NCBI RefSeq assembly: GCF_000223215.1
Contig: NC_017243.1
Location: 868,001-932,000, forward strand
DNA from: Brachyspira intermedia PWS/A
Lineage (GTDB): Bacteria > Spirochaetota > Brachyspiria > Brachyspirales > Brachyspiraceae
DNA: 64,000 nucleotides
Direction: 5' to 3'
The notes under the pieces are model-generated. The model had not been told where the DNA came from. It searched no databases and was given only the letters and a program-made list of their open reading frames with translations. Below, piece after piece: positions 27,428-33,561 of this stretch (positions are counted from its first letter, which is position 1; every line of letters starts with the position of its first letter). A program made the position numbers and the translations under genes.

Positions 27428-27471
27428 AAATTAAAGTTCTAAATATGTTATGTAAACTTTACGATATATAA

Positions 27472-27496
27472 AAATACTTTATTAATAAAGGTATTT
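27472..27496 (+). promoter_or_regulatory. Hairpin masking the ribosome-binding site of the restriction gene
   Basis: AAATACTTTATT can pair with AATAAAGGTATTT (one bulged G). The AAAGG ribosome-binding site of the downstream gene lies in the 3' arm, 7 bases before the ATG at 27499. The pairing could limit translation or serve as a weak terminator of the TPR gene. Confidence 0.35.
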
Positions 27497-27498
27497 GA

Positions 27499-30227
27499 AT
27501 GTTATCTAAAATGTTGCAAAATTCTATAGAAGTTGAAATAGGGAAAAGAAGTATTGAGAAAATTGAAATACCTATTTCTATTACTAAAAATATAAAAAAT
27601 ACTTTAAGACCATATCAAGTAAACTGTTTACAGTATTTTATAGCATATTTAAATGAATATGATAATAATAATAAAAATAATCATTTAATGTTTAATATGG
27701 CTACAGGAAGCGGAAAAACATTAATAATGGCTTCTTTGATACTTTACTTATATGAAAAAGGATATAGAAATTTTTTATTTTTTGTAAATTCTGTAAATAT
27801 CATAGATAAAACGAGAGAAAATTTTTTTAATATATCAAGTAATAAATATCTTTTTAATAATGAAATTATAATCAATAATAAAAATGTTGAAATAAAAGAA
27901 GTTAATAATTTTGATTATTCAGATGATTATAATATAAATATATTTGTAACTTCTATACAATATTTACATAATTTATTAAAAGAAAATAAAGAAAATGCTT
28001 TTGATATAACAAACTTACAGGATAAAAAAATTGTTATATTAGCAGACGAAGCACATCATTTTAATGCAGAAACTTCTAAAAATAAAATTGTTCAAAAAGG
28101 ATTTTTTGAAGAAGAAAAATCAAATGAAAAAGAAACAGTAAAAAATGATAATTGGGAAAGTACTGTACAAACTATATTTCAATCTAACAAAGAAAATTTT
28201 TTATTTGAATTTACAGCTACTATAGATTATGAAAACAAATCTATAGTTGATAAATATTTGGATAAAACAATATTTAAATATGATTTATTAAAATTTAGAC
28301 AAGATTTATATTCTAAAGAAATTGATATAATACAAAATGATGTTGATAAAAAATACTTAATGCTTGGTGCTGTTATACTTAGCGAATACAGGAGAGAAAT
28401 TGCTTCAAATAATGGTATAGAGTTAAAACCAATAATTTTATTTAAAGCACATAAACTTATAAAAGAATCTCAAGCAAATCAGGAAATATTTAATGATTTA
28501 ATAGATAATTTAAAAGAAAAAGATATTGATAAATTATACAAATCTAATCTTAAAGAAAATGATAAAAAAGACATCATATATAAAGCTATAGGATATTTTA
28601 AAAATAAATATAAAGATTTTGATATTTTTATAAGCAGAATAAAAGAAGCTTTTAAAAAAGAATATCAATTAATAACTAATGAAAAAACTAAATCATCAGA
28701 AGAAAAAATGATAAAGATAGTAAGGAAATGTCAAAACAAAATAAATTGTTAAATACACTTGAGAATAAAGACAATCCTATAAGAGTTATTTTTAGTGTTA
28801 ATAAATTAAATGAAGGTTGGGACGTTTTAAATTTATTTGATATAGTTAGATTATATGAAAAAAGAGATGCAGATACAAAAAATAAAAAAGCTGGAAAAAC
28901 TACAATAAGCGAGGCTCAATTAATAGGAAGAGGAGCAAGATATTATCCTTTAAAATTAGATTATTATAATGATGATGAAATATATAAAAGAAAATATGAT
29001 AAAGATTTGGATAATGATAAAAGAATATTAGAAACATTATATTATCATAGTATAAAAGATAGCAGATACATATCAGAATTGAGAACTGTATTAAGAGAGC
29101 ATGGACTTTTAGATGATGTATATTGCAGAGAAGAAGATTTTAAACTAAAAGAAAATGTAAAAAAATACGCTGATACAAATTTTATATTTTCTAATAGAAA
29201 AGAAGAAAAAGCTAGATTTTATAAAGAAGATAAAACATTAGTAGGAAATAAAAAATCTTTTGAAGATATTAAATCTTATTTTAGAAATATTACATTAGAA
29301 TATAATTGCAGAACAGGTATAAGAAAAATAGAACATGCTATTAGCATTGAAGAAGAAAAAAATTTAACAGAAAGTGAAAAACTTCAAAATCTTAAAATAG
29401 AATCTTTGGGAAAACCTAAACATATAAGTTTTGGAGATATTAAAGATTATATAAAAATTAATGCTTGGTATAAAATGAATTACGGATTTGATAAACTTAA
29501 ACCTAAATTCCAAGATTTAAAAAATATAGGAGAACTATTTGACTATTTAAATGATGTAAAATTTCTTTTTTTCAATTTAAATGATAAATATGTAAATCTA
29601 AATTATGAATATATTAATTTTCTTACAACAAATTTTTATCCTAAATTAATTAAAATAATTGATGAAAATTATAGTGAATATATAGGAACAAAAGATTTTT
29701 ACCCACAATTAATAAAAGATGTATTTAGAGATAAAAAGAAAAAAATATACAATGAAAAATTATGTGATGATATGGAAAAAATAGACTATTATGCACAAAA
29801 TTTTTTATATGCTGATAGCGATTTAGAAATATCTTTTTCTAAAAAACATATAAATGATGTTATAGAATATTTAAAAGAAAAAGGCTATAGCAATATATAT
29901 TTATTTAGAAATGACCAAGATTTAGCTATATATAATTTTGATAATGGAACAGCTTTTTACCCTGATTTTATTTTAATATGCGAATATAAAAAAGAACAGA
30001 TTCATTATCAAGTATTTTTAGAACCTAAAGGAAAAGGTTTAGGAGATTCTCCAAAAGAAAAAGCAAAACAAGATTTTTTACTATCTATAAAAAATGATAG
30101 TACTTTAAATAAAGATATTTTTGAGCTTGATACAGATAAATATATTTTATTCGGTATGAGATTTTTTACTGATCAAATGGATATTCAAAAATGGAATGAT
30201 GAATTGAAAAATGAGTTTAAAGGATAA
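27499..30227 (+). pseudogene. Type III restriction endonuclease subunit Res, frameshifted
   Basis: The SF2 helicase-nuclease subunit of a type III restriction-modification system, in two frames. The first part (27499-28752) has Walker A MATGSGKT, DEAH-box ADEAHH and motif III FEFTATI. The second (to 30227) has FSVNKLNEGWDVLNLFDIVR and QLIGRGARYY (motifs V-VI) and a C-terminal PD-(D/E)XK nuclease (YPDFILICEYKK...FLEPKGKG). Adding one A to the A6 tract at 28703-28708 restores a single frame of about 909 residues. It is followed 4 bases later by mod. As read, the second part could start at ATG 28728 but would lack the ATPase motifs. Confidence 0.88.
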
Positions 30228-30231
30228 TTAA

Positions 30232-32170
30232 ATGGAATATATACATAATTATTTAAAAAAGTTATTTAAGAAAAATAATAACTATATAGGAAAAGATGGG
30301 GATTTGTTAATATCAAAAATAGCTGAAGATGCAAGACTTTATAATTCAGAATTAATAAAATTTCTGCTTAATGATAAAAGATGCCAATATTATTTTTTAG
30401 AAAAAATAGATGATGTAACTATTTTCAAATCAGAAGATTTCAGAATGTGTATAAATGATGCAAGATTTTTAGGAAATAGTTTTACAAAATACGGAAATAA
30501 AATAGGTTTGATAACTGATAAAAGTATTGTCAAAATAATGAATGAAGATTATGTGGTATTAAGTTATCCTTATAAAGACTGCACTCTTGACGGAGGAATG
30601 ACAAAAACAGAGGCAAAAAGAACAAACAGAAAAGAAACGATGATAAATAATATTCTTTTCAAAGATGATATACATAAATTAAAAAGCCCTAAAGCATTTA
30701 AAAATTTTAAAAAATATAGTTTTGAAAATGAAAAATTAAAAGAGGAAACACCTGAAGCTATAAAAGGTAATGAAAATTTAATTATTAATGGTAATAACTT
30801 TGCAGCTTTATGCAGTTTGAAAGCAAAATTTGCTGGTAAAATAAAATTAATATATATAGACCCTCCATACAATACTGGAAGCGATACATTTTCTTATAAT
30901 GATAATTTTAATCATAGTGCTTGGCTTGTATTTATGAAAGACAGACTGCAATTAGCCAGAGAATTATTGTCTGATGACGGAGCAATCTTTGTACAATGCG
31001 ATGATAACGAGCAGGCATACCTAAAAGTTTTAATGGACGAAATTTTCGGAAGAGATAATTTTATATCTAATTTTATTAGAAAAACAGGTCAAGCTGCTAG
31101 AATTGATGCTAAATATATTGCTAAACAACATGATTATTTATTATTATATTCTAAAAATATTGACTATATTTTAATAAATAAAGAAATTGCAGATAATATG
31201 GATTCATATATATATGAAGATGAATTTGTATATACAAGAGGTAAATATAAATTAAATAAATTAGATAGAGGAAGTATAAGATATTCTGATTCTTTAGATT
31301 ATCCAATTAAAGCACCAGATGGAACTTTAATATATGCTGGTGGAGTAAAAGAATATAATGGTTGGTGTTGGAGATGGAGCAAAGATAAATTGGATTGGGG
31401 TATAGAGAATAATTTTATAGTTTTCAAAAAAATAATAATGGAATATGGTCTGTTTATTTTAAACAATATCAATTTGTAGATAATGATTTAAAAAATATAG
31501 TAAGACAAAATCCATATAGTACACTTTTAATAGATGGTTTTAATAATGAAATAGGTACAAAGGAGCATTATGATCTATTTAATAATAAAATATTTGGATA
31601 TCCAAAACCAGAAATTTTATTAAAAAGAGTTATTGAAATTTCTACTAACGAAAATGATATTGTTCTTGATTTCTTTGCTGGGTCTGGTACTACTTTAGCC
31701 GTTGCTCATAAAATGAATAGGCGATATATAGGAGTTGAGCAGATACAAGAGCATTTTGATATTTGTGTTGAAAGGCTTAAAAAAGTTATTGAAGGTGAGA
31801 ATTCAGGTATTTCTAAAAATGTTAATTGGCAGGGCGGAGGAGAATTTATTACTTTTGATATTGCTTCATATAATGCTGATTGGGCTAAAAAAATTGAAAA
31901 AATAAAAGATGATAAAGAGTTAAAAGAAATATTTGAAGATATGAAAAATAAATCTTTAATTAATCATAGGCTTCAAATAGATTATTTTGAAAATAAAAGT
32001 TTTGAAGATGATGAAGAATTTTTATCTTTAAAATTGGAAAGAAAAAAGAAATTTTATTAGAACTGCTTGATAAAAATATGTTTTATGTACCTTTTTCTGA
32101 AATGAAAGATAAGACTTTTAAATTATCTGATGATGATATCAAATTATCTAAACAGTTTTATAAAAATTGA
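30232..32170 (+). pseudogene. Type III DNA methyltransferase subunit Mod, two frameshifts
   Basis: The beta-class adenine methyltransferase of the type III system. IYIDPPYNTGSDTFSYNDNF (motif IV) precedes the target-recognition region. The S-adenosylmethionine motif LDFFAGSGTTLAVAHKMNRRYIGVE lies near 31670. Frame breaks occur at an A7 tract (31426-31432) and an A6 tract (32042-32047). Adding one A to each restores one ORF ending at 32170. As read, the first part (30232-31479, 415 residues) lacks the FxGxG motif and should be inactive. Start: ATG overlapping the end of res, with AAGGA upstream. Confidence 0.88.
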
Positions 32171-32273
32171 TTGTAAAATTACTCAAAAAAAGATAATTTT
32201 CTATTTGTGAATTTTTTATTATATAGTATAATATCTAAAGGACAAAGCTATATTTTAAAAGGAGTTTACAAAT

Positions 32274-32429
32274 ATGGTTACAGCTATTACGACGACTGAT
32301 ACAACCAATACGTATACTACGTCAATAGGCGGGGTAAATGTCACTGTCAGAAATAATTTCTCTGACAAAACAGCTACTGTTGAAGTAGAGCCGAAAATCA
32401 CGGGGGGTGCTTTAAATGTGCAAGGATAA
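32274..32429 (+). CDS. Thr-rich 51-residue hypothetical protein
   Basis: A short ORF with a strong AAAGGAG ribosome-binding site 9 bases before ATG and a TATAAT-like box near 32227. The product starts with a Thr-rich run (TAITTTDTTNTYTTS) and continues with a Gly/Val/Asn-rich strand-forming segment (IGGVNVTVRNNF) and EVEPKITGGALNVQG. It has no signal peptide and no recognised family. Codons such as ACG, GGG and GTC make it clearly richer in GC than its neighbours. RNA hairpins lie inside and just after it, so an RNA function is an alternative. A terminator follows at 32514. Confidence 0.5.
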   Translation: MVTAITTTDTTNTYTTSIGGVNVTVRNNFSDKTATVEVEPKITGGALNVQG

Positions 32430-32513
32430 TTTCCCCCTTGTCGCATTTATATTATCGGTTCTTTAATTTAATACTTTAATAAAAAAGTAGTTTTTTGTTC
32501 GATTATTAAAAGT

Positions 32514-32549
32514 AATGGGGTTGTTCGTGGGAGGCAGCTCCATTTTTTT
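32514..32549 (+). terminator. Terminator downstream of the Thr-rich mini-ORF
   Basis: AATGGGGTTG pairs with CAGCTCCATT (two G-U pairs) around an 11-base loop and is followed by seven T. The gap 32430-32513 also contains a C5 run able to pair with the G6 run at 32402-32407. Confidence 0.85.
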
Positions 32550-32564
32550 ATTTATGAATAATAA

Positions 32565-33539
32565 TTATTGATTAACGTTTTTTATTTTCTTCTGTATTGA
32601 TATAGTGTTTCGCTCCCAAAATACATTACCTGTGTAGCCTTGTATTTCTTTGTTGCTTTCAGCATTTTCGATTCTTTTTTCAGCCCAAGCACAATATGTT
32701 TTATGCTGTTCTATACCTGAATAATTTCTTCCTAGTTTCTTCGCTACCACTGAAGTAGTGCCGCTTCCCAAAAAAGGATCAAATATAAAATCATCGGCAT
32801 TTGAACTTGCTAATATCAATTTCGCTATTAACTTTTCAGGCTTCTGAGTAGGGTGAGCAGTGTTTTCTGACATAGACCAATAAGGCACAGATATATCGTC
32901 CCAAAAATTAGACGGACAGGTATCTCTGAAATTGCCGTCTTCTGTTTCCGTCCAATCTTTAGGCTTTCCTTCTATTCTATATGGAGCTATTACCTTTCTT
33001 CTTATTTTTACATCATCTACATTGAAAGTATATTTATTTGATAGGGTAGCAAACCATATATCTTCCATTCCATTCTTCCAATTATTTTTAGCCCCTCTGC
33101 CTTTCTCTCTCTGCCAAGTGATTCTGTTTTGTATGTTGAAATATTTTTCTAAAACATTCCCTATTACAAGACTAGACTTCCAATCACAGCATACATATAT
33201 AGTGGCATTTTCTTTTAATATTGGAATAATGTCTTCTACCCATAGATGAGTATATTTTTCATAGCTTAAATTATCTATATCTTTGAATTTAAAACCATGA
33301 TAATTTTTGGATATATTATAAGGCGGATCAACTATCATTAAATCAGCTATATTTTTTTCTATTTTTTTTAAAACATCAAAAGTATTGCCGTTTATAGTTT
33401 TATTTATAATATTTTCTTTTTTGTATTCTATTATATTTTCATTGTCTATAATACATTTGTTTAGATATGATTTACCTTCTTCTGTATTTATATCAAAATC
33501 AATAGTTTTATTTTTGACTGATTTAACTTTAGTATTCAT
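32565..33539 (-). CDS. Site-specific DNA methyltransferase (orphan)
   Basis: A 324-residue beta-group DNA methyltransferase. MIVDPPYNISKNYHGF (motif IV) is followed by a recognition region and, near the C-terminus, TAHPTQKPEKLIAKLI and FDPFLGSGTTSVVAKKLGRNYSGIE (AdoMet-binding motif I). DPPY suggests N6-adenine, though N4-cytosine enzymes of this layout exist. No restriction endonuclease is adjacent; it lies 22 bases downstream of guaA and probably shares its transcript. It is convergent with the broken type III system but of a different type. Confidence 0.9.
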   Translation of the reverse strand: MNTKVKSVKNKTIDFDINTEEGKSYLNKCIIDNENIIEYKKENIINKTINGNTFDVLKKIEKNIADLMIVDPPYNISKNYHGFKFKDIDNLSYEKYTHLWVEDIIPILKENATIYVCCDWKSSLVIGNVLEKYFNIQNRITWQREKGRGAKNNWKNGMEDIWFATLSNKYTFNVDDVKIRRKVIAPYRIEGKPKDWTETEDGNFRDTCPSNFWDDISVPYWSMSENTAHPTQKPEKLIAKLILASSNADDFIFDPFLGSGTTSVVAKKLGRNYSGIEQHKTYCAWAEKRIENAESNKEIQGYTGNVFWERNTISIQKKIKNVNQ

Positions 33540-33561
33540 GTATTTCCCGCTATTATAAAAA

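Follow-up and report, generated by a model that had tools for sequence, protein, structure and literature searches.

A core 51-residue protein gene of Brachyspira and its possible silencing by a sigma28-type small RNA

Introduction

Between the genes of a type III restriction–modification (R-M) system and a DNA methyltransferase gene, a Brachyspira chromosome of 3.3 Mb carries a short, GC-shifted stretch with one small open reading frame (ORF). The stretch lies at 32227-32549 of the window, that is, of the whole 64,000 nucleotides analysed (G000:C2:868001-932000). Does this locus encode a protein or mainly a structured RNA, does it belong to the genus or to variable cargo, and what controls it? 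A sequence-only reading had described a mini-gene of 51 residues with a strong ribosome-binding site and inverted repeats, and proposed an accessory element that could specify a secreted or toxic peptide or act mainly as RNA. Comparison across 26 Brachyspira genomes, with B. innocens, B. hampsonii and B. alvinipulli among the relatives, partly supported that reading, which had missed an antisense sigma28 promoter and a small RNA (sRNA) complementary to the leader.

Results

A small protein gene of the genus core

The 51-residue ORF (Table 1) was found as a single copy in 23 of the 26 Brachyspira genomes, and no paralogue was found in the window's own genome. Two of the three genomes without the gene are incomplete, and the third (G021, 99% complete) seems to lack it. 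No homologue was detected in other genera among 393 genomes of the spirochaete phylum, nor in phages, plasmids or viral contigs. Protein identity is 90–98% between the window's genome and 16 close genomes (the main set, n = 17), and 50–62% for the homologues in divergent genomes. The pooled pN/pS of the 17 close genomes was 0.10 (also given as a dN/dS of about 0.10), and the 22 aligned homologues keep frame and start without internal stops, as expected for a protein-coding small gene. The ORF is a real protein gene and belongs to the genus core; the proposal of an accessory element gave way to this distribution and to the exchange of the adjoining R-M genes between species, and that of mainly a structured RNA to the pN/pS value.

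The AlphaFold2 model of the protein contains four strands (residues 2-7, 11-18, 21-28 and 33-40; pLDDT 79), and the same four strands were obtained for a divergent homologue (pLDDT 80). The predicted fold is a four-stranded antiparallel sheet. The C-terminal tail KxTGGALN, with K41, T43, G44, G45, A46 and L47 invariant, is highly conserved and predicted to be flexible, which would fit a segment for binding or assembly. No match above threshold was found in Pfam, NCBIfam, PHROG or PADLOC, and comparison with protein families and PDB sequences gave weak chance matches only (e.g., FliD_C, E 0.1). The fold search returned nothing at E <= 0.001; the best score (VIA Z 5.2) is uninformative since the sheet is so small. 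The sequence is polar and Thr-rich, with no visible signal peptide or membrane segment, and nothing was seen of the secreted or toxic peptide once suggested.

Class II bacteriocins have a helical leader with a double-glycine consensus and a transporter/peptidase gene nearby. This class was rejected, as the IGG at residues 18-20 lacks the leader consensus, the N-terminus is predicted as a strand and the flanking genes are R-M, guaA and murJ-type genes.

Composition agreed with the first description. The GC content is 0.410 in the ORF, 0.344 in the stretch and 0.268 in the window as a whole; the value of the stretch is nevertheless reached by 7.8% of all 323-nt segments. ACG accounts for 5 of the 13 Thr codons, whereas six large ORFs use it for 2 of 180. 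Despite the odd GC content and codons, nothing points to recent transfer, as the gene is found genus-wide.

Table 1. Features of the locus and its neighbours, in window coordinates.
Feature	Position	Strand	Remark
Type III R-M genes (res, mod)	27499..32173	+	Variable cargo, frameshifted here; outside the unit
Putative sigma70-type promoter, TTGTGA, 16-nt spacer, TATAAT	32205..32232	+	10/12 consensus positions
Leader, 34 nt from the putative start	32240..32273	+	Near-invariant in 17 genomes
9-bp complement GGACAAAGC of sRNA segment GCUUUGUUC	32240..32248	+	mRNA 5′ end
Leader hairpin, Shine-Dalgarno in loop, start codon in stem	32246..32279	+	Predicted
15-bp complement UUACAAAUAUGGUUA of sRNA linker	32266..32280	+	One G-U; Shine-Dalgarno spacer over AUG
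51-residue ORF	32274..32429	+	Preceded by AAAAGGAG Shine-Dalgarno
ORF-internal hairpin TGTCAGA/TCTGACA	32345..32367	+	Arms 32345-32351 and 32361-32367; pairs mostly kept
Inverted repeat G6/C5	32402-32407, 32433-32437
Inverted repeat AAATGTGCAAGG/CCTTGTCGCATTT	32414-32425, 32436-32448
Stop-codon-spanning hairpin GUGCAAGG/CCUUGUCGCAU	32418..32446	+	Several broken pairs
Sigma28 promoter TAAAGTAT-N11-ACCGATAA	32452..32478	-	Antisense into ORF; putative start near 32445
Intrinsic terminator	32514..32550	+	Stem 32514-32544, then T-run
N6/N4 DNA methyltransferase gene	32565..33539	-	Converging neighbour, outside the unit

Genomic surroundings

The position between type III genes and a methyltransferase gene is as first described. 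In most genomes of the main set, a TPR gene and guaA bound the region that holds the gene (window 27430-33560; stretches L034-L049), and modification genes (type III, type II-like or orphan) vary on both sides of it across species. It adjoins ispG in G016, G017 and G024, and occupies other sites in G011 and the divergent genomes. Since these neighbours change between species while the gene is kept, they are a poor guide to its function.

Compared with G004, each type III gene lacks one base, res near 28707 and mod near 32042, and the frameshifts fit phase variation, decay or assembly error alike. Against the same genome, mod also has a replaced segment in its middle (31107-31620), where a target-recognition domain usually lies.

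Transcription unit, leader and hairpins

The sequences of different species start to agree about 7 nt past the sigma70-type promoter motif. From the motif and this onset, transcription would start near 32240, and the gene appears to form a one-gene transcription unit. The 35 nt before the start codon have a mean identity of 0.96, compared with 0.63–0.90 at neighbouring genes. The third codon positions of the ORF are not more conserved than those of neighbouring genes, and a conserved function of codons 14-22 beyond the protein was rejected as marginal (any-window P 0.026). In the divergent clade, the leader and the 3′UTR are wholly different and the protein is retained.

The stretch folds at −80.1 kcal/mol (z −3.1), with none of 100 shuffles as stable, and all three inverted repeats of the earlier description are present. 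Covariation, the check it had proposed, held for the terminator stem; the ORF hairpin showed one-sided changes only, and the stop-codon hairpin weak covariation with broken pairs. The terminator, also recognised earlier, was the only one found, against 0.2 expected in shuffles. Its loop sequence GUGGG is invariant and extends to GUGGGA in 14 of the 17 genomes, complementary to UCCCAC in the terminator loop of the sRNA described below.

A sigma28-type promoter facing the gene

The 3′UTR is otherwise variable but conserves ATTATCGGTT and TACTTTA, which on the minus strand give TAAAGTAT-N11-ACCGATAAT, a sigma28-type promoter. CCGATAA and the -35 element are co-located in 17/17 close genomes, 15 of which have the strict form, and the site is absent from all five divergent genomes tested, though the protein is kept there. 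The strict motif TAAAGT-N14-CCGATAA gave 91 matches in the 26 genomes versus 16 for the reversed control, and stands also before fliF; FliA is encoded in the genome. CCGATAA is the sigma28 -10 element mapped at Treponema denticola flaB2, and flaB1 and flaB2 of B. hyodysenteriae are sigma28-controlled (PMC9481697). No terminator was found for the predicted antisense RNA. A 63-residue antisense ORF was rejected as a gene, being present in only 2 genomes.

The arrangement resembles cis-antisense control of small-protein genes in that a promoter in the 3′UTR is directed over the ORF. It differs in that sigma28 opposes a sigma70-type promoter, in the restriction to the main clade, in the lack of a detected antisense terminator and in a product that is not a membrane toxin.

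A second conserved strict motif was observed in stretch L074 (about 1501-1527), antisense in the first codons of a 521-residue ORF. Its ends are kept in many genomes and its spacer is variable; it could be another antisense promoter.

An almost invariant candidate small RNA

Tracing sigma28 sites led to a sequence elsewhere in the genome that is identical across species while its flanks are not. This unannotated candidate sRNA of about 78 nt (RNA at G000:C2:1263487-1263579; locus G000:C2:1263468-1263579, stretches L063/L127) has the sequence AGUUGAUUGGACUACCCCCCAAUAACUAUAUUUGUAAUAAGCCGCUUUGUUCAUCCCACAAAAGCGGUUUAUUUUUUU, in which an unpaired linker joins a first hairpin to the terminator hairpin, and its flanking genes differ between genomes. 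The promoter is of the sigma28 type, TAAAGTT-N-GCCGATAA in most genomes; in the others the -35 TAAAGT is kept and the -10 is relaxed to CGATAAT or CGATATT. The fold has a z of −4.8, the terminator hairpin is followed by a T-run, and there is no conserved ORF, since stops break all three forward frames.

The sRNA was found in 24 of the 26 genomes, including all 21 of good quality. Main-clade copies show 99–100% identity, those of the divergent clade 98% and that of G010 92%; 14 of the 24 copies are identical to the query over the matched length. Rfam gave no match at this locus or within the window, and a full-text literature search, judged by title and abstract, found no paper on small RNAs of Brachyspira.

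MotR and FliX of Escherichia coli are sigma28-dependent base-pairing sRNAs of the flagellar regulon. The candidate shares with such RNAs the flagellar-sigma promoter, the stable fold with its own terminator and no ORF, and the predicted pairing to mRNA leaders, with two flagellin leaders ranking high as partners here. It differs in being a free-standing gene absent from Rfam, with no known sequence relation to them and almost no variation across its genus. In addition, no match to PF17209 (Hfq) was found in the genome, with control genomes behaving as expected, so the candidate does not classify as an Hfq-dependent sRNA.

Complementarity between the sRNA and the leader

Two segments of the mRNA 5′ region are complementary to the sRNA, in the correct antiparallel order. 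At the mRNA 5′ end, the 9-bp match GGACAAAGC/GCUUUGUUC was equalled by 47 of 5000 shuffled sRNAs. Around the start codon, the linker UAACUAUAUUUGUAA would pair without gaps to UUACAAAUAUGGUUA over 15 bp, a match reached by none of 5000 shuffled sRNAs. Part of the complement sits in the sRNA terminator stem, which would need opening. When the leaders of four main-clade genomes were shuffled, 1, 0, 0 and 5 of 3000 sequences reached the observed energy. The start region of the 51-residue ORF has the longest contiguous match (rank 1) and is 4th by duplex energy among 1018 sampled start regions. These regions, whose start codons were assigned automatically, come from the window and 60 stretches (1.2 Mb), which together cover about 38% of the chromosome. 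Since the sRNA was reached via its promoter and not by complementarity, few hypotheses were tried on the pairing.

In the divergent leaders, GGGGUAG or UUGGGGGG would pair with the C-rich loop of the sRNA and an 11- or 10-nt match (AUUUGUAAUAA) with the linker; 30, 103 and 165 of 3000 shuffles were as good, which lends the pairing modest support in this clade. For G010, it is no better than chance (658/3000). Thus, complementarity of the ribosome-binding region goes beyond chance in the main clade and is weaker in the divergent genomes. Since the sRNA barely varies, no two-sided covariation between sRNA and mRNA is seen.

Two further contacts were considered. The SL1 loop could pair with codons 20-21, a contact rejected as not significant on its own (657/5000 shuffles), and the complementarity between the two terminator loops was equalled by 117 of 5000.

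The leaders of two flagellin (flaB) genes (stretch L179 near 10197 and L146 near 7682) ranked 11th and 15th of the 1018 by duplex energy in the window's genome. The sRNA occurs also in G021, where no 51-residue gene was found, so this mRNA would not be its sole target; together with the rank of the flagellin leaders, this suggests that it probably has several.

Discussion

The best explanation, to which we assign a probability of about 0.55, is that the flagellar (sigma28) programme acts through the sRNA, after transcription, to silence a conserved gene on a sigma70-type promoter. When FliA is active, the sRNA would be made from its sigma28-type promoter and would pair with the mRNA 5′ end and across the AUG and the Shine-Dalgarno spacer before it; ribosomes could then no longer load, and translation would stop. 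In the main clade, the sigma28 promoter in the 3′UTR would yield an antisense RNA over the ORF and add to the silencing. Since the pairing covers the AUG, repression rather than activation would be expected.

The strongest alternative is that this is simply a small protein gene specific to the genus, whose leader and terminator are under strong selection, and that the sRNA match and the antisense promoter are coincidental. Selection on the protein is evident with no need to invoke RNA regulation, the cis hairpin could by itself account for the invariance of the leader, and the SL1-loop contact is not significant. Coincidence has to accommodate, however, a start-codon match that no shuffled sRNA equalled and that ranks first among the sampled start regions, an sRNA found by its promoter, and a sigma28 element conserved within a variable 3′UTR; this account therefore seems doubtful, though it deserves to be kept in mind.

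The mRNA itself might be the regulator, its leader or 3′ region titrating the flagellar sRNA or releasing a 3′UTR-derived sRNA, with the peptide secondary. Such a role would suit the structured mRNA, the complementary terminator loops and the presence of flagellin leaders among the other likely partners of the sRNA. It is unlikely against the strong purifying selection on the protein, which the divergent clade keeps while the leader and 3′UTR are completely changed.

For CsrA as the leader partner in place of the sRNA, the GGA of the Shine-Dalgarno in the hairpin loop would be a CsrA-type site, and CsrA is encoded in the genome. The CsrA/FliW control of spirochaete flagellin leaders likewise acts on translation at a Shine-Dalgarno in a hairpin loop; the target here is not a flagellin, however, and the leader holds a long RNA complementarity. 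This partner is improbable, since any looped Shine-Dalgarno would look alike and the remaining GGA motifs are not conserved between species. The mRNA as a CsrA sponge was rejected for the latter reason.

An accessory toxin in an R-M hotspot, with the antisense RNA as its type I antitoxin, could claim the antisense promoter and the variable neighbourhood, but is hardly credible for a single-copy core gene with no toxin-family match, whose product is a polar, Thr-rich beta protein instead of a hydrophobic membrane peptide and whose antisense promoter is missing from the five divergent genomes that keep the protein.

In length and lack of a family match the protein resembles other genus-restricted small proteins; it differs from them in its conserved leader and antisense signals, which suggest a specific regulatory context. 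On this regulatory evidence, the protein is probably tied to motility, and one may guess that it acts in a state that opposes active synthesis of flagella or is tuned against it. More tentatively, the near-invariant, genus-wide sigma28 sRNA, in a spirochaete with no detectable Hfq, might be a flagellar hub that, together with the sigma28 antisense RNA, doubly silences a core beta-sheet protein and whose further targets include flagellin mRNAs.

The genus Brachyspira consists of motile bacteria of the gut and includes pathogens. If the preferred reading is right, they would possess a near-invariant sRNA with its promoter and a strong candidate target, all accessible to a small number of test mutations, and the control of motility would be linked to a protein family whose function is unknown.
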